Translations under genes and position numbers: made by a program
NCBI GenBank assembly: GCA_021779855.1
Contig: JAJXZW010000013.1
Coordinates: 1 to 61,770 of the forward strand
Direction: 5' to 3'
Origin: Actinomycetes bacterium
Lineage (GTDB): Bacteria > Actinomycetota > Acidimicrobiia > Acidimicrobiales > RAAP-2
DNA length: 61,770 bases
The notes under the pieces: model-generated
What the model was told of the DNA's origin: nothing
What the model saw: the letters and a program-made list of their open reading frames with translations, nothing else
Databases searched by the model: none
In this document: positions 34,631 to 46,564 of the stretch, piece after piece
How the letters are laid out: each line of letters starts with the position of its first letter
Numbering within the stretch: the first letter of the stretch is position 1

Positions 34631-36030
34631 ATGCCCTACGGCGACATGGACGTGGCGGCGAGCCCGCTCGAGCTGATCGGCCGCACCCCGATGGTGCGTC
34701 TGACCAAGGTCGTCGACGGCGTGGCCTGCGACGTCATCGCCAAGCTCGAGACCACGAACCCGGGGGGCAGCGCCAAGGACCGGCCGGCCCTGACCATGGT
34801 CGAGGCGGCCGAGCGCGACGGCCTGCTCGGGCCGGGCTCGACCATCATCGAGCCCACGAGCGGCAACACCGGGGTGGGCCTGGCCATCGTGGCCGCCCAG
34901 CGCGGCTACTCGTGCGTCTTCGTGATGAGCGACAAGATGGCGCCCGAGAAGATCGACGTCCTGCGCGCCTACGGGGCGCAGGTGGTGGTCTGTCCCACGG
35001 CCGTGCCACCCGAGCACCCCGACTCCTACTACTCGACCGCCGAGCGGCTCACCCGCGAGACCCCCCACGCCTTCCGGCCCGACCAGTACTCCAACCCGAA
35101 CAACCCCCGCGCCCACTACGAGACGACCGGGCCCGAGATCTGGGCGCAGACCCGCGGGCGGGTGACCCACTTCGTCGCCGGCGCCGGGACCGGCGGGACC
35201 ATCTCGGGCGTCGCGCGGTACCTGAAGGAGCAGAACCCCTCGGTCCAGGTGATCGCGGCCGATCCCGAGGGCTCGGTCTTCTCCGGTGGGGCCGGCCGCC
35301 CGTACCTCACCGAGGGGGTGGGCGAGGACTTCTGGCCGGCCAACTACGACCCGTCGCTCGTGGACCGGGTCGTGGCGGTGTCCGACGCCGACGCCTTCGC
35401 TATGGCGCGCGCGGTCACGCGTCGCGAGGGACTCCTCATCGGGGGCTCGGGCGGCACCGCGGTGGCGGCCGCGCTGCGCGTCGCGCGCGGCCTGCCGGAG
35501 GGCGCCGTCGTCGTGGTGCTCATCCCCGACTCGGGCCGCGGGTACCTGTCCAAGATCTTCAACGACACCTGGATGACCGAGTACGGCTTCTTGCGACCCC
35601 ACGACGTGGACGACGTCGGGGACGTGCTGGCGGCCAAGCGGGCCCGACCCGGCGAGGAGCTCGACGACCTGGTGCTCGTGACCGAGGACGTACTGGTGCG
35701 CGACGCGATCGCCCTGATGCGGGCGAAGGACGTGAGCCAATTGCTCGTGACGGTCACCGACGAGCTGCCGCTCGCCGCGAAGGAGGTCTCCGGATCGCTC
35801 AGCGAGCTCGGCCTGCTCGAGGCGACGACCCGTGACGCGTCGGTCCTCGGACTTCGGGCGAAGGACGTGGCGGACCCGCCGCTGCCCATGGTGGGGGTGG
35901 GGATGCCCGTCACCGACCTGACCCGCGAGCTCTCGCGCACGGCCGGGGTCCTCGTGCTCGACGGCGGTCATCCGGTGGGCGTCCTCACGCGATCAGACCT
36001 CTTGAGCTTCCTCGAGCAGCGGAGGGCCGG

Positions 36031-36034
<4 letters not shown>
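34631..36034 (+). CDS. Cystathionine beta-synthase
   Basis: PLP enzyme condensing serine and homocysteine to cystathionine. The 467-residue protein has the PLP-Lys motif NPGGSAKDRPAL (about 47-58), EPTSGNTGVGLA, GAGTGGTISGVARYL and GGSGGTAVAAAL, followed by a regulatory CBS domain pair (LVTEDVLVRDAIALM, PVGVLTRSDLL) in the last 120 residues. GGAG lies seven bases before the ATG and TTAGAGT further upstream may be the -10. The next gene overlaps by four bases. Confidence 0.9.
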
Positions 36035-37158
<1,124 letters not shown>

Positions 37159-37220: not shown

Positions 37221-37418
37221 GTGATGGGCGCACGGGTCAGGATCCTGGGCTTCTCGGTGTCGCGCGACGGCTACGGCGCCGGGCCCCACCAGAGCGAGCG
37301 TGAGCCGCCCGGCGAGGGCGGCAGCGAGGGCGTCGACGACGCCCACGTCCGTCGTGACGTCCACGCGCTCGCCTTCACCGACTGGGGCCGCCGGCGCGGC
37401 ACTAGAACGGTGGCGTGA
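37221..37418 (+). pseudogene. Remnant of a RibD_C/dihydrofolate-reductase-family gene
   Basis: The frame starting at 37221 reads RVRILGFSVSRDGYGAG, GPHQSEREPPGEGG and then loses resemblance. The first part matches by eye the opening of small RibD C-terminal/DHFR-family reductases (SLDGFVAGPNQSLENPLGEGG type). The remaining 130-150 residues of such a protein are missing; the frame runs on to the pirin start. A TAGGGT hexamer at 37203 still precedes it. I read it as a decayed gene, though a short chance ORF cannot be excluded. Confidence 0.5.
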
Positions 37419-38296
37419 GCGTGGCGCAGATCACCCCGGCGCGCGCGTCGTCGGTCGGTGAGCTCGCGGTGCGCCGGGCCCTGCCCACGCGCGGCCGGCG
37501 CACCGTCGGACCGTGGTGCTTCCTCGACCACCTCGGCCCCGCGACGTACCGCGAGGACCTCCGCTACGACGTGGCCCCCCACCCCCACATCGGCCTCCAG
37601 ACCGTGACCTGGCTGCTCGAGGGCGCGATGGTGCACCGCGACAGCCTGGGCAGCGAGCAAATGATCCGCCCGGGCCAGGTGAACCTCATGTCGGCGGGCG
37701 ACGGAGTCGTCCACTCCGAGGAGAACCCCGGGCTCGACCGCGGTGAGCTCCACGGTGCCCAGCTGTGGCTCGCCCAGCCCGACACGACCCGCCACGGGGC
37801 TCCCGCCTTCGCGCACCTCGAGGACCCGCCGCGCCTCGAGCTGGACCAGGGGTCCGCCACGCTGGTCGTGGGGACCGCGATGGGGATGGCCTCGCCGATG
37901 CGCGGCGACGCTGGCGGCCTTGCGCTCGAGTTGCGCCTCGCTAGGGGCACGACCGCGGTGGCCCTCGAGCCGGCCTTCGAGCACGCCCTGCTCGTCGCCG
38001 AGGGCGAGGCGGTTCTCGGGGGCGAGTCGGTCGCCCCGGGCTCGCTCGCCTACCTCGAGCCCGGCGCGGACGAGGTCGACCTCGTCACCCACGAGGGGGC
38101 CGTGGCCCTGCTCATCGGTGGTGTCCCCTTCCCCGAGCCGGTGGTGATGTGGTGGAACTTCGTCGCGCGCAGCCACGAGGAGATCGCGCGGGCCTACGAG
38201 GACTACCTCAAGCACGACGAGCGCTTCGGCGAGGTCGACTCGTCGCTCGCGCGCCTCGAGGTCACCCCACCCCCATGGTTCGGCTCGCGGCGCTGA
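37415..38296 (+). CDS. Pirin family protein
   Basis: A 293-residue bicupin. The N-terminal domain has VGPWCFLDHLGP, the metal-binding PHPHIGLQTVTWLLEG, HRDSLGSEQMIRPGQVNLMSAGDGVVHSEE in shortened form (ligands H, H, H, E), and the C-terminal cupin ends in VMWWNFVARSHEEIARAYEDY. Pirins may act as quercetinase-like dioxygenases or redox sensors; the target here is unknown. GTG 37415 with TAGAAC six bases upstream. Confidence 0.9.
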   Translation: MSVAQITPARASSVGELAVRRALPTRGRRTVGPWCFLDHLGPATYREDLRYDVAPHPHIGLQTVTWLLEGAMVHRDSLGSEQMIRPGQVNLMSAGDGVVHSEENPGLDRGELHGAQLWLAQPDTTRHGAPAFAHLEDPPRLELDQGSATLVVGTAMGMASPMRGDAGGLALELRLARGTTAVALEPAFEHALLVAEGEAVLGGESVAPGSLAYLEPGADEVDLVTHEGAVALLIGGVPFPEPVVMWWNFVARSHEEIARAYEDYLKHDERFGEVDSSLARLEVTPPPWFGSRR

Positions 38297-38346
38297 GCGC
38301 GAGCGAGGGTCCCCTAGGCGCGACGGCCCGCCCGTAACGTGGGCGG

Positions 38347-39393
38347 GTGTCCGCCCTGACCCACACCCTCGCGGTGACGTGGTCGCCGTTCGTCTTGGTG
38401 GCGGGGCTCCTGCTCATCGGCCAGGTGGCTGCCGGCGAGGGCCTCTTCACGCTCATCGGGTCGTGGTGTGCGCGGGTGCCCGGGGGCGCGCGGGCGAGTC
38501 TCGTCGTCACGCTGCTCGCCGTCGCCGCGGTCACGGCCGTGTTGAACCTCGACACGGCGGTCGTCTTCATGACCCCGGTCGCCCTGCACGCGGCGCGACA
38601 GCGCGCATCCGACGAGCGGGCCTTCCTCTACGGGACGGTCTTCATGTCGAACGCCGCGTCCCTGCTGCTCGTCGGCTCGAATCTGACGAACCTGCTCGTG
38701 GTGGCCGACCGCGGAGGCGGAGGGTCGGACTTCGCCGCGCGCACGGGCCTGCCGTGGGCGGCGTGCGTGGTGGCCACGGTGGCCGTGGTGCTTGCGTGGT
38801 GGTGGCGGGCTCTGGGGGCGGGGACCGGGGCCGGCGGCGCGCGCGAGCCCTTCCGGGCCGGCCCGGGGACAGCCGGCGCCACCCTGGCCGTCGCGGCCAT
38901 GCTGCTCACCCGCCAGCCCGCGCTGTGGGTCCTCGGCGTCGGGCTCGTCGTGGCGGCCGTCGACGTCACCGTGCGCCGGCGCCTCGAGCTGCGCGAGGCG
39001 CTCGCCGTCACGAACCCCCTCCTGCTGGGGGCGCTGTTCGCGGTGGCGACCGCCGTGGGGTGGTTCGCCCGCACCTCGGGCTTCGCCGCGGGCGCCCTCG
39101 CCCACACCGACGTCGCGGCGACCACCGCCCTGGCCGCCCTGACGACCGTCGTGATCAACAATCTCCCGGCGGCGTCGTTCTACGCGGCCCACGCCGTCGC
39201 CCACCCGCTCGCCCTCCTGGTGGGTCTCGACGTGGGTCCGAACCTCGCGGTCACCGGGGCCCTGTCGTCGCTGCTGTGGCGCCGGATCGCCGCGCGCGAG
39301 GGCGCCTCGACCTCTCCCGCGACCTTCAGCCGGGTGGGCGCCGCTGTCGCCGTCGTGGCCGGTGCGGCCGCGACGCTCCTCCTTCGCGGCTAG
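38347..39393 (+). CDS. ArsB/ion-transporter superfamily membrane protein
   Basis: A 348-residue integral membrane protein with about ten hydrophobic segments. Landmarks of the IT superfamily: LNLDTAVVFMTPVAL, MSNAASLLLVGSNLTNLLV, and in the second half TTVVINNLPAASFYA and NLAVTGALSSLLW. ArsB arsenite pumps, anion and Na+/H+ antiporters share these. No arsenic genes are adjacent, so the ion is unknown. It is shorter than ArsB (about 430 residues). GTG 38347 with TAACGT six bases upstream. Confidence 0.8.
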   Translation: MSALTHTLAVTWSPFVLVAGLLLIGQVAAGEGLFTLIGSWCARVPGGARASLVVTLLAVAAVTAVLNLDTAVVFMTPVALHAARQRASDERAFLYGTVFMSNAASLLLVGSNLTNLLVVADRGGGGSDFAARTGLPWAACVVATVAVVLAWWWRALGAGTGAGGAREPFRAGPGTAGATLAVAAMLLTRQPALWVLGVGLVVAAVDVTVRRRLELREALAVTNPLLLGALFAVATAVGWFARTSGFAAGALAHTDVAATTALAALTTVVINNLPAASFYAAHAVAHPLALLVGLDVGPNLAVTGALSSLLWRRIAAREGASTSPATFSRVGAAVAVVAGAAATLLLRG

Positions 39394-39962
39394 TCGGTGG
39401 GGACTGGCTCGAGGGGCCAGAGTGTCGCGTTGTCGACCCGCTCCCAGGCCATCCCCTCCAGGGGGACGCCCCAGGCGACCGCGCGTACCGCCCTCACGAA
39501 CCCGCCGTGGGTCACGACCAGCAGTCGGCGGTCCGGCCAGGCGAGTTCGGCCTTCTCGAGGAATCGCCGGGCGCGCAGCGCCACGTCACGGAAGGACTCG
39601 CCCCCGGCGGGGCGGGCGTCGGGGTCGACGAGGACGTCGTCGGCGATGCCCGTGTTGGCCGGGGTGACGGCGGCGAGCGGACCGCCCTCGAGGTAGCCGA
39701 AGGAGCGCTCGCGCAGGAGCGGGTCGATCAGGCGGGTGACGTCGAGGGCGCCGGCCACGATGTCCGCGGTCTCGAGCGCGCGGGTGAGGTCGCTCGCCAG
39801 GATGAGGTCGACTCCTCGCGCGCGCACTGCGTCGACCGCCTCGAGGGCCTGGGCCCGGCCCTGGTCGGTGAGCCGGGCGCGGTCGTCTTGACCTTGGCAG
39901 CGTCGGGCCACGTTCCAATCGCTCTCACCGTGACGCAAGAGGGTCAGTGAAGGCGGGGCCAT
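39390..39962 (-). CDS. Histidine phosphatase family protein (phosphoglycerate-mutase-like)
   Basis: A 190-residue protein with the catalytic LLRHGESDWN at about 8-17, the second Arg in ASDLTRALETA, the acid-base ERSFGYLEGG and VVTHGGFVRAV with the second His. Substrates range from phosphoglycerate to sugar phosphates; GpgP (glucosyl-3-phosphoglycerate phosphatase) is of this family and would complement gpgS at 24828, a hypothesis only. ATG 39962 with TAGCGT seven bases upstream. It converges on the transporter with a four-base overlap. Confidence 0.88.
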   Translation of the reverse strand: MAPPSLTLLRHGESDWNVARRCQGQDDRARLTDQGRAQALEAVDAVRARGVDLILASDLTRALETADIVAGALDVTRLIDPLLRERSFGYLEGGPLAAVTPANTGIADDVLVDPDARPAGGESFRDVALRARRFLEKAELAWPDRRLLVVTHGGFVRAVRAVAWGVPLEGMAWERVDNATLWPLEPVPTD

Positions 39963-40175
39963 CGCTCCCACGCTAGAGAGCCCGAGTCGCCGCACTCGCG
40001 TCACGCCGTCCCCGCCGGGAGCGTCCGCGGGGCGTGTCGGCCCATTCTCAGGATTCTCTAAGGGCACCTTCCAGCGTGCTCACGGCGCTCTTTCCTTGGG
40101 TTACGGGCACAGCGGGTCACCGGGGGGACCTTGGCCCCCTGGAGTCGGAGGGCCCTCCGTCGTTAGCATCGAAAC

Positions 40176-40949
40176 GTGGCCCTCCTCCTCCCCGATCGCT
40201 CGCCGAAGCCCCGTCGCACGGGGCTAACGATGACGATCGACAAGGGCCTGCCACTCGGCCAGTTCCGCGACCTCGTGGAGAGCCACGGCGAACTGATCGA
40301 CCTGGTGAAGTTCGGCTGGGGGACCTCGGTGGTGACGAAGGACTTCCCGGAAAAGGTCGCCACGTTGGCCGAGAGGGGCATCGACTTCTACTTCGGCGGG
40401 ACCCTCTTCGAGAAGTACGTCCTGCAGGGCCGCTTCGACGAGTTCCGCGATCTGTGCGCCACGGTCGGCTGCCCGATCGTCGAGGTCTCCAACGGGACGA
40501 TCGACATCACCAACGACGACAAGGCGGACTACGTGAAGCGCCTCTCGGACGACTTCCGGGTCATCTCCGAGGTCGGGTCGAAGGACCAGCTGAGGTCCGA
40601 CACCATGGCGCCTCATCTGTGGATCCGCTACATCCGGGCCGACCTCGACGCCGGGGCCGAGCTGGTCACCCTGGAGACCCGCGAGGGCGGCAAGGGAGGG
40701 ATCTGCCGGTCCAACGGCGAGCTGCGCTACGGGCTGATCGAGGAGATCCTCGACGCCGGCCTCCCGCACGACCGGCTCCTCTTCGAGGCCCCCTCGACCG
40801 AACTGCAGACCTACTTCGTCAAGCGAGTCGGGCCCAACGCCAACCTCGGAAACATCGCCGTCACCGACATCGTCCCGCTGGAGACGATCCGGCTCGGCCT
40901 GCGCTCCGAGACCCTCCTCGAGTTCGAGCCGCGCGACTGGGAGGACTAG
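40176..40949 (+). CDS. comA: Phosphosulfolactate synthase (ComA family)
   Basis: A 257-residue TIM-barrel protein with the ComA pattern: PKPRRTGLTMTIDKG, LIDLVKFGWGTS, FYFGGTLFEKY, VEVSNGTIDI, RVISEVGSKD, AELVTLETREGGKGGI and APSTELQTYFVKRVGPNANLGNI. ComA adds sulfite to phosphoenolpyruvate to give phosphosulfolactate, the first step of coenzyme M synthesis in methanogens; bacterial relatives supply sulfolactate-derived compounds. GTG 40176 with TAGCAT six bases upstream. It is followed without a gap by a VOC protein and then an AMP-forming ligase, making a three-gene unit. Confidence 0.85.
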   Translation: MALLLPDRSPKPRRTGLTMTIDKGLPLGQFRDLVESHGELIDLVKFGWGTSVVTKDFPEKVATLAERGIDFYFGGTLFEKYVLQGRFDEFRDLCATVGCPIVEVSNGTIDITNDDKADYVKRLSDDFRVISEVGSKDQLRSDTMAPHLWIRYIRADLDAGAELVTLETREGGKGGICRSNGELRYGLIEEILDAGLPHDRLLFEAPSTELQTYFVKRVGPNANLGNIAVTDIVPLETIRLGLRSETLLEFEPRDWED

Positions 40950-41363
40950 GTGCGCGAGCCCCGCGACGTCTTCCACCTCGCCGTCCCCTGCTACGACCTC
41001 GACGCGACCGTCGAGTTCTACGTGGGCCGGCTCGGCTGCAAGCTCGCGCGCCGCTACGACGACCGCGTCACCCTGGACTTCTTCGGGGACCAACTCGTCT
41101 GCCACCTATCCGCAGCGCCCGAGCGACTCACGCCGATGAACGAGCTGCCGATGTACCCGCGCCACTTCGGGGTCACCTTCCGGGAGGGTGAGGACTTCGA
41201 CGCCCTCCACGCGTTGTGTCAGCAGAGGGGCGTCCCGTTCTACGCCGACGTGAGCCGTCGCTTCGAGGGGCGTGCGGAGGTCCACCGGACCTTCGTCGTC
41301 TGTGACCCGGCGAACAACCTCCTCGAGTTCAAGCACTACGACGACCACCGAATGATGTACTAG
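40950..41363 (+). CDS. VOC family (glyoxalase/dioxygenase fold) protein
   Basis: A 137-residue protein of the vicinal-oxygen-chelate fold: FHLAVPCYDLDATVEFYVGRLG with an N-terminal His ligand, ARRYDDRVTLDFFGDQLVCHL, then RHFGVTF, and the end DPANNLLEFKHYDDHRMMY with the Glu ligand. Members isomerise, cleave or sequester small substrates with a metal. GTG start directly after the comA stop. Its substrate is presumably made or used in the same pathway. Confidence 0.85.
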   Translation: MREPRDVFHLAVPCYDLDATVEFYVGRLGCKLARRYDDRVTLDFFGDQLVCHLSAAPERLTPMNELPMYPRHFGVTFREGEDFDALHALCQQRGVPFYADVSRRFEGRAEVHRTFVVCDPANNLLEFKHYDDHRMMY

Positions 41364-41370
41364 GCGGGCC

Positions 41371-42888
41371 ATGGAATCGAGGCCGCCTCTGACACCGGAG
41401 TCCCTCGCCGCGCTCGTGGCGCGCCGAGGGGCGGACGCGCCCGACGCGCCCTACCTCGTGGAGGTCCGGGGCCCTCGGGCGGTCACCTTCGGGTCGCTCG
41501 CCACCGACCTCGCCCGGGGCCGGTCCTGGCTGGCCGCAGAGGGGCTCGTCCCGGGCGCGCGGGTCGGGCTCGTCGTCGCCGACCCCCTCGACTTCTGTCG
41601 GTGGTTCCTCGCTGGGCTGAGCGCGGGGCTGTGGGTCGCGCCCCTCGACCCGACTCCCGCCCCGGGGGCCGCCGCGACCACGGCCGAGCGGATCCGGACC
41701 CTCGCGCTCGACGCCGTCCTCGCCGATCGCCCCCGGCTCCAGGGCCTCACCCGGCCCTGGCTCGAGGTCGCGCGCGCGCGCGCCGGGGCCGTCCTGGACC
41801 CGCCCGGCGCCGTCGGGGGGATCCTGCTGGCCTCCTCGGGCACGACGGGCACGCCCAAGGTCATGGCCCTCACGGTGGCCCAGGTCCTCGCAACGGCTGG
41901 GCTGGTCGCCGAGCACCACGGCCTGCGGCCCGGGGAGCGGGGCTTCAACCCGCTGCCGCTCTGGCACGTGAACGCCGAGGTGGTGGGGGTGCTGGCCACC
42001 CTCGTCGCGGGGGCGTCGCTCGCTCTCGACGACCGGTTCCACCGCACCGGGTTCTGGAAGGTGGTCGACGAGTCCGGGGCGACGTGGGTCAACGCCGTGC
42101 CGGCGATCATCGCCCGCCTCGTCGAGCCCGAGGCCGGCGAACGGGTCCCCGAGCGCGTGCGCTTCGTGCGCAGCGCGTCGGCCCCGCTCGCGCCCTCGCT
42201 CGAGGGGACCTTCGAGCGCGTGACCGGCGTCCCGGTCGTCCAGTCCTACGGCATGACCGAAGCCGCGAGCCAGATCTGCGCCAACCCGGTGGGGGGGCCG
42301 CGCAAGCCCGGCTCGGTGGGTCGCCCGGTCGGCGTGTCGCTCCGGGTGGTGTCGCTCGAGGGGCGGACGGTTCTCGGCACCGGGACGGTCGGCTCGATCG
42401 AGATCGCCGGGCCCACCGTCATCGACCACTACGAGTGGGGCGCCTACGCCGACCGGTTCGACGACGAGGGCTGGCTGCGCACGGGCGACCTCGGCTACGT
42501 CGACGAGGACGGGTACGTCTTCCTCGTCGGGCGCAGCGACGACGTGATCAACCGCGGTGGGGAGAAGGTGTACCCGCTCGAGATCGAGCACGTCCTCGCC
42601 GCCGTCGAGGGTGTCGCGGCGGTCGCGGTAGTCGGGGAGCCCGACGAGGTCTTCGGGCAGGTACCGGTCGCCTTCGTCCAGCCCCGCGACGCCGACGACC
42701 TCCGGGGTGACCGGGCCGCCGCGCTCGTGGCGCGGCTCCGCGAGGCCGCCGGGGTAGCCCTCACCCGGCCGACGCGACCGGTGACGATCAAGCTCGTGGA
42801 GGCCTTCCGCGCGCACGCGACGGGCAAGATCCAGAAGAGCCGCCTGCGCGACGGGACGGTGCCGGTCGCCTACGTCGAGGCCGTCTAG
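41371..42888 (+). CDS. AMP-dependent acyl-CoA synthetase/ligase family protein
   Basis: A 505-residue ANL-superfamily adenylating enzyme. Core motifs: A3 LASSGTTGTPKVM, A5 QSYGMTEAAS, A7-A8 GWLRTGDLGYVDEDGY and GRSDDVINRGGEKVYPLEIE, and the A10 lysine in HATGKIQKSRLR. It lacks carrier domains, so it probably makes an acyl-CoA or acyl-adenylate for a free acceptor. Its place seven bases after the VOC gene and downstream of comA suggests activation of a sulfonated or related carboxylate. Confidence 0.85.
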   Translation: MESRPPLTPESLAALVARRGADAPDAPYLVEVRGPRAVTFGSLATDLARGRSWLAAEGLVPGARVGLVVADPLDFCRWFLAGLSAGLWVAPLDPTPAPGAAATTAERIRTLALDAVLADRPRLQGLTRPWLEVARARAGAVLDPPGAVGGILLASSGTTGTPKVMALTVAQVLATAGLVAEHHGLRPGERGFNPLPLWHVNAEVVGVLATLVAGASLALDDRFHRTGFWKVVDESGATWVNAVPAIIARLVEPEAGERVPERVRFVRSASAPLAPSLEGTFERVTGVPVVQSYGMTEAASQICANPVGGPRKPGSVGRPVGVSLRVVSLEGRTVLGTGTVGSIEIAGPTVIDHYEWGAYADRFDDEGWLRTGDLGYVDEDGYVFLVGRSDDVINRGGEKVYPLEIEHVLAAVEGVAAVAVVGEPDEVFGQVPVAFVQPRDADDLRGDRAAALVARLREAAGVALTRPTRPVTIKLVEAFRAHATGKIQKSRLRDGTVPVAYVEAV

Positions 42889-42890
42889 CG

Positions 42891-44150
42891 GTGACCGAGG
42901 TCGCGCCGGTTGTCGCGGTGGCCGACGCCACCCGGGGGACGCGCCAGCGCCTCGACCACGTCGACGCGATGCGCCCGATCAAGCAGTCGGCGGTCATCTC
43001 GACCCACGCGTTGATCTACTTCGCTCCGCTCTCGACCAGCCTCTGGGCGTCGGGGATGCTGACGCTCACCCACTTCTCGCGTGACGCCTTCTTGTTCGTC
43101 TCGGCCTGCATGCTCGCCTACAGCTACCGCGACAGCGCCCGCGTCGCGCTGGGGCGCTACTGGCAGCGTCGGTTCATGTCGGTGGGTCTCGTCTACCTCG
43201 CCTGGACGGTCATCTACGTCCCCGTGTCCATGGCCCGGCCGACCTCGGGCTTTCCCTTCTACCACCTGTCGGCCTCGACGCTGTTCTCGACGGTGGGGCT
43301 GCGACACCTGGGGGTGGCGCTGGCGACGGGTTACTACCACCTGTACTTCCTGCTCCTGCTGCTGGAGTTCTACGTCCTCTTCCCCTACCTCTTCTGGCTC
43401 ATCCGCCGGTGGCCGCGCTCGCACCTGGCCCTCGTGGTCGTGGCCGCACTGTGGCAGTTCGCCGTGCCCTACCTCTTCCGCCACGGGTACCTCGGCTTCA
43501 CCATCTCCCCGTGGCTCGAGACCCGCCTCGTCTCGAGCTACCTCCTCTACCTCATCGGGGGCGTGGTCTGCGCCTTCCACCTCGAGGCTTTCCACGACTG
43601 GGTCGTGCGCCACTGGCGCGGATTGCTGGTGGCCACCGTGGCCCTGGCGGCGGTGCCGCTCGTGCTGGACGCGCTGCACCGCCACTACGGGATCATCTCG
43701 TCGGCGCTGGTGCCCGGCGGCGACCCCTTCGCCTCGGCCGTAGTCCCCTACAACGTCGGGGCGATCATCGCGATCTACCTCCTCGGGGTCTTCCTCGTCG
43801 ACCGGCGCCGTAGCGCGCGGACCCGCGCGATCACCAAGTCCGGCTCCGAGGCGGCCTACGGCATCTACGTCAGCCAGCTCCTGTGGATCCTCTTCTTGCA
43901 CCAGTGGCTGCTCGTGAGCGGCGAGATCGCCCACGTGTGGTGGGTGCTGAACGTGGTCGGGGTGATCGTCGTGACCTACTTCGCCGGCTGGCTGTTCAGC
44001 GCGGTCTTCGCGCGCACCGCGCTCGCGCGTCCCCTCGTCGGACGGAGCCGCGCGAGCTGGGCGTCGCTCTGGCCGCGCCCGGCGGAGCGCGTGGTCGCGA
44101 GCTCGGCCGCCGAGGTCGGCGAGGGCCCGCTCAACCTCACCGACGTCTAG
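42891..44150 (+). CDS. Acyltransferase 3 family membrane protein
   Basis: A 419-residue protein with about ten transmembrane segments. It has the family opening LDHVDAMRPIKQSAVISTHALIYF (His in TH/RxxH position) and SRDAFLFVSACMLAYSYRD, typical of OafA-like membrane acyltransferases that modify sugars or lipids at the envelope. GTG 42891 follows the ligase stop by two bases, so it may belong to the comA unit. Acyl donor and acceptor are unknown. Confidence 0.85.
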   Translation: MTEVAPVVAVADATRGTRQRLDHVDAMRPIKQSAVISTHALIYFAPLSTSLWASGMLTLTHFSRDAFLFVSACMLAYSYRDSARVALGRYWQRRFMSVGLVYLAWTVIYVPVSMARPTSGFPFYHLSASTLFSTVGLRHLGVALATGYYHLYFLLLLLEFYVLFPYLFWLIRRWPRSHLALVVVAALWQFAVPYLFRHGYLGFTISPWLETRLVSSYLLYLIGGVVCAFHLEAFHDWVVRHWRGLLVATVALAAVPLVLDALHRHYGIISSALVPGGDPFASAVVPYNVGAIIAIYLLGVFLVDRRRSARTRAITKSGSEAAYGIYVSQLLWILFLHQWLLVSGEIAHVWWVLNVVGVIVVTYFAGWLFSAVFARTALARPLVGRSRASWASLWPRPAERVVASSAAEVGEGPLNLTDV

Positions 44151-44172
44151 CCACGCCGGAGCGCCTGAGGGC

Positions 44173-45594
44173 GTGACTACGATGGGGCTCGGACAGCGGG
44201 TGAGGTCGCGCGTGGCGGGAGCGAGGCGAGAGAGCGAGCGCCAGCGGGTGCCGGCACCCCTCCTCAAGCGGCGGCTGCCCTCCGGGCGCGGCGCGATGGA
44301 GCAGCCCAACGTCACGAGCGACCCCGACGCCCCCCAGACCGCGCGGTTCTGGGTCGCGGTGGTGGCGACCGGCGTGATCACCGGGCTCTTCGGGGACTTC
44401 CTCATGTGGGTCCTCTACTGGGCCGAGCGCGTCGGGTTCGGCTACGTCGGCGGCAGCGTTCAGGCGGCCGTGATGGCCACGGGCGAGGCGCGGCGCGCGG
44501 GGGCGCTCGCGGCGGCCGCGGTGATCGGGTCGGTCGCGTGGTACCTCATCCGACGGTTCCTCGCCCACGAGCACGCCGAGATCGACGAGGTGCTGTGGAC
44601 CGGCGCGGGCACGCTGGGCTTCCGACGGAGCCTGCTGACCTCGCTGACCTCGGAGGTGGTGGTGGGCCTAGGGGCGTCGATCGGTCGCGAGGCCGCGCCC
44701 AAGCTGATGGGCGGCGCCTCGGCGAGCGTGCTCGGGGGGTGGCTCGGGCTCACCCCCGGCCAGGTCCGACTCCTCGTCGCCTGCGGCGGCGGGGCCGGTC
44801 TGGCCTGCGTCTACAACGTGCCCTTGGGCGGGGCGCTGTTCACCGCCGAGGTCCTCTACGGCAGCTACGCCCTGCCGGTGGCGCTGCCGGCCCTGGCGAC
44901 CTCGTTCATCGCGACGACGGTCGCGTGGGCCTACCTGCCCAGCCGGGCCACGTACGTCAACGTCCCGCTCTACCACTTCAGCGCCACGATCATGGTCTGG
45001 TCGCTCGTCGCCGGCGTCGTCATCGGCCTGCTCGCCGTGCTCTACGTGCGCCTCATCGGCGTCACCGCCCACTACCGGTCCCGGGGCGCGCACATCTTCT
45101 GGACGATGCCGCTCGCGTTCCTGGGCCTCGCCGGGATCGGCACGTGGTACCCCCAGCTCTTCGGCAACGGCAAGGGCATGGCTCACGACGCGTTCTTGGG
45201 CGTCGGCTCGGTCGGCCTGTTCTTCGCTCTGGCGATGCTGAAGCCCCTGGTCACGGCCGCGGTGCTCGGCTCGGGCGCGTCGGGCGGGCTCTTCACGCCG
45301 TTCCTCTCGACCGGCGCCGTCCTCGGGGCGTTCCTCGGTGCCGTCTGGAGCCACCTGTGGCCCGGCGCCCCGGTGGGCGCCTTCGCCCTCGTCGGGGCGG
45401 CGGCCATGATCGGCGCCTCGATGCAGGCACCCTTCGTGGGGCTCGTCCTGGTGATGGAGCTCTCCCACGGCGGCTACGACCTCGTGGTGCCGATGGTCGC
45501 CGCGACGGTCATCGCGACGCTGCTGGTCCGCTGGATCGATGGCTACTCGATCTACTCGGCTCGCCTGCCCTACGCTGAGCGGGTCCATGACTGA
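44173..45594 (+). CDS. CLC-family chloride channel/antiporter
   Basis: A 473-residue CLC protein with about 11 membrane segments. Selectivity motifs are GASIGREAAPKLMGG (gating Glu present, GREGP modified to GREAAP), VYNVPLGGALFTAE and GSGASGGLFTPFLSTGA. GTG 44173 gives a basic N-terminal extension; ATG 44296 just ahead of the first membrane segment is a good alternative. The end overlaps the double-GNAT gene by eight bases. Confidence 0.9.
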   Translation: MTTMGLGQRVRSRVAGARRESERQRVPAPLLKRRLPSGRGAMEQPNVTSDPDAPQTARFWVAVVATGVITGLFGDFLMWVLYWAERVGFGYVGGSVQAAVMATGEARRAGALAAAAVIGSVAWYLIRRFLAHEHAEIDEVLWTGAGTLGFRRSLLTSLTSEVVVGLGASIGREAAPKLMGGASASVLGGWLGLTPGQVRLLVACGGGAGLACVYNVPLGGALFTAEVLYGSYALPVALPALATSFIATTVAWAYLPSRATYVNVPLYHFSATIMVWSLVAGVVIGLLAVLYVRLIGVTAHYRSRGAHIFWTMPLAFLGLAGIGTWYPQLFGNGKGMAHDAFLGVGSVGLFFALAMLKPLVTAAVLGSGASGGLFTPFLSTGAVLGAFLGAVWSHLWPGAPVGAFALVGAAAMIGASMQAPFVGLVLVMELSHGGYDLVVPMVAATVIATLLVRWIDGYSIYSARLPYAERVHD

Positions 45595-46564
45595 CACCCC
45601 CGAGCGCGACCGCCTCATCGTGCGCGTCACGACCGTCGACGACGCCGACGACTACCGGGCGCTGCGCCTCGAGGCGCTCGCCGACAGCCCCGACGCCTTC
45701 GGCACGACCCTCGCCGAGGCGCGCGACTACGAGCCAGCGCGCTGGGAGTCGCTCGCCGCGAGCGGGGCGACGGTGCTCGCCTGGCGAGGTCGTCGCGCCG
45801 TCGGGATGGCCTCGGGCGGGGTGAACGACTCCCACCCGGGCACCCGATGGCTCTACGGGATGTACGTCACCCCGGCCGAGCGGGGCCGGGGCGTGGCCGA
45901 GACTTTGGTCGAGGCGGTCCTCGAGCGGGCCCGGGCCCTCGGGGCCCCGGCGCTCTACCTCCAGGTGACCGGGGCGATGGCCCGCGCGCGGGCCTTCTAC
46001 GCGCGCCTGGGCTTCGAGCCGACGGGCGAGCGACTCGCGATGCGTCGGGACCCGTCGCTTGCGCTCGCGACCCTCGCGCGCCCGCTGGATCGCGAGCCGG
46101 TGCGGGTGCGTCGCGTCGCGGCCGAGGTGCTCGTCGACCTGCGCACCCGGGTCCTGCGCGACGGCGACCCGGCGCGCGCGGCGCGCAACCCCCGGGACGA
46201 GGAGCGCTCCACCTGGCATTTCGGGGCGTTCATCGGCGCCGACCTCGTGGGCTCGGCCTCGTTCTTCGCGAGCGCGTGGCCGCTCGAGCCGGCCCGCGAC
46301 GCCTATCAGCTGCGCTACATGGCTGTCGAGCCGAGTCTCCAGGGCCGCGGGGTCGGCCGCGTGCTGCTGGAGCACGCCGAGGCGATCCTCGCCGCGAACT
46401 CGGTACGGCGCGTGTGGGCCCACGCCCGTGACAGTGCCCTCGGCTTCTATCGGGCGACCGGCTGGGAGGTCGTCGCCGGCAGCGAGCACCTCAGCGCCGA
46501 GACCGGGCTCCCGCACACCTCGGTCACGAAGGTGCTGTCCGGCGCCGGTGGGGGGGCTGGGTAG
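45587..46564 (+). CDS. Tandem-GNAT acetyltransferase
   Basis: A 325-residue protein with two GNAT domains. Domain 1 has RLIVRVTTVDDADDYRALRLEAL and YVTPAERGRGVAETLVEA; domain 2 has DAYQLRYMAVEPSLQGRGVGRVL and HARDSALGFYRATGW. Both CoA loops look usable (RGRGVA, QGRGVG). Similar fusions include mycothiol synthase (MshD), but its length and sequence here do not let me claim that. ATG 45587 lies inside the CLC gene end. Confidence 0.85.
   Translation: MTDTPERDRLIVRVTTVDDADDYRALRLEALADSPDAFGTTLAEARDYEPARWESLAASGATVLAWRGRRAVGMASGGVNDSHPGTRWLYGMYVTPAERGRGVAETLVEAVLERARALGAPALYLQVTGAMARARAFYARLGFEPTGERLAMRRDPSLALATLARPLDREPVRVRRVAAEVLVDLRTRVLRDGDPARAARNPRDEERSTWHFGAFIGADLVGSASFFASAWPLEPARDAYQLRYMAVEPSLQGRGVGRVLLEHAEAILAANSVRRVWAHARDSALGFYRATGWEVVAGSEHLSAETGLPHTSVTKVLSGAGGGAG

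Follow-up and report, generated by a model that had tools for sequence, protein, structure and literature searches.

The 61,770-nucleotide stretch of DNA analysed here (the window) is contig JAJXZW010000013.1, contig 37 of the 2.06 Mb genome assembly GCA_021779855.1 of an Actinomycetes bacterium. It carries a gene cluster in which a ComA-type phosphosulfolactate synthase is encoded directly next to a protein with the vicinal oxygen chelate (VOC) fold. This ComA-VOC cluster is best read as a variation on the ComA/ComB route by which sulfolactate is known to be made. Judged from sequence, we estimate a probability of about 0.75 that ComA, a phosphatase and the VOC protein make a sulfolactate-derived product. 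The full account, which adds activation by an adenosine monophosphate (AMP)-forming ligase and transfer by a membrane acyltransferase, we regard as an even bet. The cluster has the following features:

39390-40067, minus strand: histidine phosphatase (branch 1), divergent from ComA; PF00300, 144 bits (cut-off 21.7)
40164-40169, plus strand: TAGCAT, a leaderless-type -10 hexamer 6 bases 5′ of the ComA GTG
40176-40949, plus strand: ComA-type phosphosulfolactate synthase, GTG start; PF02679, 271.9 bits (cut-off 25.2)
40950-41363, plus strand: VOC-fold metalloprotein of the 3rri type, GTG start; Glyoxalase PF00903, 46.6 bits (cut-off 20.6)
41371-42888, plus strand: AMP-forming acid ligase; AMP-binding PF00501, 146.2 bits (cut-off 29.9), and AMP-binding_C, 45.9 bits (cut-off 24.5)
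42891-44150, plus strand: membrane acyltransferase-3; Acyl_transf_3 PF01757, 88.2 bits (cut-off 31)

The genes of ComA, the VOC protein, the ligase and the acyltransferase are arranged head to tail on one strand (40176-44150), separated by 0 (40949/40950), 7 (41363/41371) and 2 bases (42888/42891), respectively. A preliminary description, made from the letters of this stretch, had reported the first three as co-directional with gaps of 0 and 7 bases and the acyltransferase-3 gene as following two bases downstream; coordinates, strand and gaps proved exact, and all four family assignments lie above the Pfam cut-offs. It had also pointed to a leaderless-type hexamer in front of ComA, and this observation could be extended. 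A TAnnnT motif precedes the ComA start by 6 (21 loci) or 7 bases (2 loci) in each of 23 loci, namely those, with the window's among them, in which the best ComA segment reaches an identity of 70% or more. These loci represent 16 distinct upstream sequences; ComA begins with GTG in some and ATG in others, and the flanking bases differ as well. Because the motif is kept at this distance while neighbouring bases vary, it supports a candidate leaderless promoter for the ComA-headed unit. By eye, with no scan made, no such hexamer was seen before the VOC or ligase genes of the window.

The linkage of VOC and ComA was tested in three genome samples that had not been picked via the cluster, namely 61 relatives, 296 genomes of the phylum and 250 from the class to which Anoxybacillus tepidamans belongs. 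Among the relatives, ComA was found in 20 and VOC (at least 143 bits) in 18, in every case adjoining ComA; these 18 linkages are not independent events because the relatives are mostly of one genus, and the other three VOC matches reached no more than 65 bits. The phylum sample contained ComA in 32 genomes and VOC (at least 170 bits) in four, again always next to ComA, the other ten matches scoring 71 bits or less. In the class sample, 107 genomes carried ComA and 16 carried VOC, which adjoined ComA in 15; in the sixteenth (G572) ComA lies on a different contig. Within the three samples VOC never occurred without ComA, while ComA often occurred without VOC. A ligase matching the window's with an E value of 1e-80 or better was present in 20 of the 61 relatives, comprising all 18 with VOC and two others (G027 and G036). 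The preliminary description had made its interpretation depend on the three genes being linked in related genomes, and it withstood this comparison because their linkage is conserved.

A broader view of the distribution was provided by the best 80 of 136 VOC relatives. These loci were found through VOC, and for this reason the counts per locus given below are not prevalences; loci L001-L023 and L024-L057 come partly from the same genomes, and L133 and L135 represent the window again. The closest relatives, up to 97% identical, belong to metagenome-assembled genomes (MAGs) titled Actinomycetes or Acidimicrobiaceae. Hosts include, among others, Acidimicrobiaceae, Actinomycetospora, Frankia, Alicyclobacillus, Bacillaceae and Legionella londiniensis, as well as MAGs titled Sulfuricurvum, Sulfurimonas, Planctomycetota, Nitrosomonadales and Bacteroidetes. 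The ComA-VOC pair is not an actinobacterial peculiarity: it occurs in several phyla, and it is the ligase and the acyltransferase of this type that form the actinobacterial part of the cluster. ComA lies within 74 of the 80 VOC loci, and four Bacillota genomes among the remaining six carry it elsewhere. The tree distances of VOC and ComA are correlated (0.74, n = 74; the best of 999 shuffles gave 0.17). A chance neighbourhood was rejected because the membership of the cluster stays constant while the gene order changes. Among plasmids, VOC matched 94 records, every one below 60% identity, which are probably other subfamilies. Judged from record titles, several hosts look like dwellers of acid sites (Alicyclobacillus, bog and palsa MAGs); a sulfonate remains charged at low pH.

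The VOC-linked synthases also group together. A ComA tree of 159 rows, repeats included and sequences shorter than 200 residues dropped, placed all 98 VOC-linked rows in one clade with a support of 0.999. This clade holds 8 further rows, one of them (L069) with a stop within the VOC stretch, for which reason it was excluded from the VOC alignment; 53 rows fall outside. The closest solved structure to the window ComA is 1u83, of the Bacillus subtilis type (E 2.6e-79, 269.5 bits). Conservation in ComA and VOC was counted after dropping alignment rows that cover less than 75% of the query length. K136 of ComA is invariant in 95/95 rows and aligns with K137 of the Methanocaldococcus jannaschii enzyme, presumably its conserved active-site lysine. 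In the relatives L020 and L032 ComA is present in two pieces, which is a broken gene or an assembly error. The phylum sample has 32 genomes with ComA, and 28 of them are without a VOC of this subfamily.

A search of the PDB with the VOC protein returned 3rri from Alicyclobacillus acidocaldarius with 191.7 bits, the next match reaching 20.4 bits. The predicted model (predicted local distance difference test score 95.3) superimposed best on the same structure (Z 22.1). Residues H9, H52, H72, H112, R34, R104 and K128 are conserved in 100/100 rows and E126 in 99, many of these rows being related. H9, H72 and E126 fit the two-His-one-Glu metal triad of the VOC fold and are candidate ligands, and the abundance of basic residues would suit an anionic substrate.

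The preliminary description stated that no ComB phosphatase is adjacent. This is correct, and a search of the whole genome for the ComB family PF04029 gave no match either; a phosphatase is nevertheless not lacking, as the divergent histidine phosphatase gene at 39390-40067 had been overlooked. Its R45, H46, R96, E120 and H187 are present in 58/58 rows; the RHG motif, R96, E120 and H187 we take to be the catalytic residues. As the first residues of the annotated protein are missing in 50 of the 58 aligned rows, translation probably begins at the ATG ending at 39962. This phosphatase lies within 6 kb of VOC in 44 of the 80 loci. At scores above 100 it occurs in 42 of the 74 ComA-bearing loci, in four arrangements: upstream on the opposite strand (18), upstream on the same strand (9), downstream opposite (12) and downstream on the same strand (3). 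From this varied placing we argue that selection keeps the phosphatase in the cluster. When the histidine phosphatase of a distant cluster (L071) was compared with the window's genome, it scored 129 bits against the window's gene and 50 against the runner-up, and the Legionella londiniensis cluster contains a histidine phosphatase as well.

ComB-like genes are present in 9 of the 80 loci (eight by the count within 6 kb of VOC, plus L069; two were scanned, both confirmed as PF04029), and in none of the 80 does ComB accompany the histidine phosphatase. PF04029 was searched for in 50 whole genomes, covering 17 of the 18 VOC-bearing relatives (all except G015) and 7 of the 9 ComB loci (all except L066 and L069). 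It was absent from all 17 searched genomes that carry ComA-VOC within the genus and order of the window, and from 10 of 12 further genomes with a clustered histidine phosphatase; it was present in all seven searched genomes with ComB in the cluster and in the genomes of L068 and L086. The histidine phosphatase beside ComA probably replaces ComB. Some relatives (L013, L015, L021, L022) carry ComA without VOC, and a histidine phosphatase lies near ComA in L013 and L015, as it does in L109 and L119, which have no VOC either.

From the gene families we infer a route in which ComA would form phosphosulfolactate from sulfite and phosphoenolpyruvate, and the divergent histidine phosphatase, in ComB's stead, would convert it to sulfolactate. 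The VOC metalloprotein would act on sulfolactate or phosphosulfolactate; our best guess is that it isomerises its substrate or, with the help of its metal, alters the carbon bearing the hydroxyl in some other way. The ligase would then adenylate the carboxylate, and the membrane acyltransferase would transfer the acyl group to an acceptor at the surface, a sugar or a lipid, which most likely lies on the outer side of the membrane.

Among solved structures, the ligase is closest to oxalate-CoA ligases (194 bits, compared with 144 for FadD13). H199, N201, R267 and S270 are invariant in 55/55 rows, and in an alignment R267 corresponds to an arginine in three oxalate ligases and not in FadD13 or MenE. 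Oxalate-CoA ligases presumably contact oxalate through a His, a Ser and a His; the first two are kept and the third is replaced by Ser300 (Ser in 52/55 rows), and a plain oxalate-CoA ligase was rejected on this ground. A different explanation, which we consider unlikely, accounts for the same gene set: the ligase would activate a common fatty acid or some short acid, which the acyltransferase would then link as an ester to the hydroxyl of sulfolactate or of a headgroup bearing sulfolactate, resulting in a sulfonated lipid-like compound. A FadD7-type fatty-acid ligase model indeed matched at 252.9 bits, though far below its cut-off of 650. However, the closest solved relatives act on a small dianionic acid, and the four invariant residues, with an arginine common to oxalate ligases, likewise speak against this explanation. 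When the ligase of a distant cluster (L097) was compared with the window's genome, it gave 330 bits with the window ligase and 141 with the runner-up among 10 matches, and we therefore assign the cluster ligases to one subfamily.

In another explanation, the end product would be free sulfolactate or a simple derivative, retained as a solute in the way known from spores of B. subtilis, and ligase and acyltransferase would belong to a neighbouring function. Loci of Bacillaceae, in which ComB, ComA and VOC occur without the ligase, are in favour of this idea, and so is the sulfolactate content of B. subtilis spores, given as 5% of the dry weight in the available part of PMC517825. We nevertheless judge it decidedly unlikely, as 57 of the 80 loci have the ligase and 50 an acyltransferase-3 family gene no more than 6 kb from VOC, in changed orders (the ligase downstream in 39, upstream on the same strand in 13 and upstream on the opposite strand in 2). 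Furthermore, an acid-activating enzyme together with an acyltransferase, both from other families, recurs in other phyla: in Sulfuricurvum the corresponding place is taken by an AMP ligase along with an Antibiotic_NAT acyltransferase, and a Bacteroidetes MAG has an AMP ligase there, accompanied by an acyltransferase of the MBOAT family and a DegT gene. In Legionella londiniensis an ATP-grasp protein is found there. GDSL-type hydrolases lie within 6 kb of VOC in 14 of the 80 loci; of two that were scanned, one scored above and one below the Pfam cut-off.

It is highly improbable that the VOC protein is a Fos-type thiol transferase or resistance-like protein, which would couple a thiol with a sulfonate intermediate or defend the cell from such an intermediate. 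Fos proteins are its nearest characterised structural neighbours (Z about 12-14), and the alignment pairs the first His and the neighbouring strands; other VOC proteins, however, are equally close structurally, an epoxide intermediate is not expected, and membership in the Fos family was rejected because the curated FosA/FosB models gave at best 19.7 bits, far under the cut-off of 250. The available part of PMC12400152, in which a Legionella VOC is named fosA1, reports no link to ComA. Finally, a place in a coenzyme M route is scarcely credible and was rejected: ComA is the first enzyme of both such routes, but the window ComA reached 222 bits with the archaeal coenzyme M equivalog TIGR03849 (cut-off 280), ComB is missing from the genome, and neither ComC, ComDE nor a lyase of the kind found in the bacterial coenzyme M cluster was among the scanned neighbours (ComC and ComDE were not searched genome-wide). 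As first proposed, the simplest reading is a pathway to a sulfonate that departs from the standard coenzyme M route.

Going beyond the sulfolactate route itself, we tentatively propose a bacterial surface sulfonation, widespread and undescribed, that would place a permanently charged sulfonate at the cell surface: sulfolactate made from phosphoenolpyruvate and sulfite would be altered by a new VOC enzyme, activated, and transferred as an acyl group to a glycan or lipid. For the removal of phosphate, the activation and the transfer, different protein families would have been brought together separately in actinobacteria, Campylobacterota and Bacteroidota. A surface acceptor is proposed mainly because the Sulfuricurvum set sits in what looks like a surface-sugar locus, flanked on one side by NeuB, cytidylyltransferase and aminotransferase genes and on the other by dTDP-sugar epimerase, C-methyltransferase and DegT genes. 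Genes with a relation to sulfur are also found nearby. In Anoxybacillus a gene for PAPS reductase lies divergently beside ComB-ComA-VOC, a TauE/SafE gene adjoins the set in a Nitrosomonadales MAG, and about 3 kb upstream in the window lie what we take from their sequences to be a cysteine-synthase-like gene (34631-36034) and a transsulfuration-type pyridoxal phosphate enzyme gene (36031-37158).

Several observations weigh against the proposed pathway or parts of it. The surface-sugar context comes mainly from one genome, that of Sulfuricurvum. This ligase and acyltransferase were not found in the ComA-VOC loci of Bacillaceae and Alicyclobacillus, and the activation and transfer steps are therefore not universal. 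No ComA was found in two MAGs of actinobacteria that carry VOC along with the ligase and the acyltransferase. Structure prediction, recommended in the preliminary description, gave a clear fold and a candidate His/His/Glu site, but the reaction of the VOC protein is not readable from the modelled fold. With respect to the phosphatase, 2 of the 12 further genomes with a clustered histidine phosphatase have a ComB-like gene elsewhere. Of the loci covered by the whole-genome search, nine from actinobacteria have neither phosphatase in the cluster; this search found PF04029 at 63-85 bits in four of these genomes and no ComB in the other five, nor in any of three Alicyclobacillus genomes. Clusters with neither enzyme count against a fixed phosphatase partner. 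In one such locus, of Frankia (L065), a HAD hydrolase adjoins VOC.

Further genes are found around the cluster. A CitMHS/ArsB-like transporter gene (38347-39393) adjoins the histidine phosphatase gene, as in many loci of the genus, and could encode a pathway transporter. Behind the acyltransferase gene, a chloride channel gene (from 44173), a GNAT gene and one further gene (up to 47590) are present in many loci of the genus; these are probably inherited neighbours, because they are absent behind distant clusters. Two Bacillota MAGs with ComA elsewhere in the genome have the VOC gene after a DUF2891 gene (L076:5684-6769 and L080:1305-2318), and DUF2891 may belong to the same pathway. In another Bacillota MAG without adjacent ComA (L070:5484-7881), genes for a D-2-hydroxyacid dehydrogenase and a major facilitator superfamily transporter precede VOC.

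Taken together, the observation made in the preliminary description is confirmed as real, and its interpretation is partly supported, with the conserved linkage giving good support to the sulfonate idea. Among the matches listed in a search of the titles and abstract openings of the open-licence literature, no description of a ComA-VOC cluster was found. A VOC subfamily with a solved structure and, as far as we found, no known function gains a firm pathway context across phyla, and a likely substitute for ComB can be named. The pathway predicts sulfolactate-derived conjugates in bacteria in which we found none reported. If the proposed surface acceptor were correct, bacterial surfaces would be sulfonated via acyl transfer and not by sulfotransferases.

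The cluster can be compared with several known systems. With the archaeal coenzyme M pathway (ComA, ComB, ComC, ComDE) it shares the ComA family and the presumed first product, and it differs in a ComA under the TIGR03849 cut-off and a genome without ComB. The bacterial coenzyme M cluster of Xanthobacter and Methylohalobius likewise contains a ComA-type synthase, there combined with lyases, a desulfhydrase and a sulfoacetaldehyde dehydrogenase according to the available part of PMC11507031; none of these partners was among the nine window proteins scanned (37415-46564). The VOC protein is of the same subfamily as 3rri and 66% identical to it, the title of that structure naming no function; in contrast to the window, the Alicyclobacillus loci showed neither ligase nor histidine phosphatase. 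The oxalate-CoA ligases 5ie0, 6qjz and 8aff share the residues at H199, R267 and S270 of the window ligase, which has Asn201 and Ser300 where they have His. The closest parallel in ComA itself, by its match to 1u83, is yitC-yitD (ComB-ComA) of B. subtilis, inferred to make phosphosulfolactate in the part of PMC517825 cited above, and Bacillaceae relatives extend this pair to ComB-ComA-VOC; compared with yitC-yitD, the window has a histidine phosphatase in place of ComB and, in addition, the VOC protein, the ligase and the acyltransferase.

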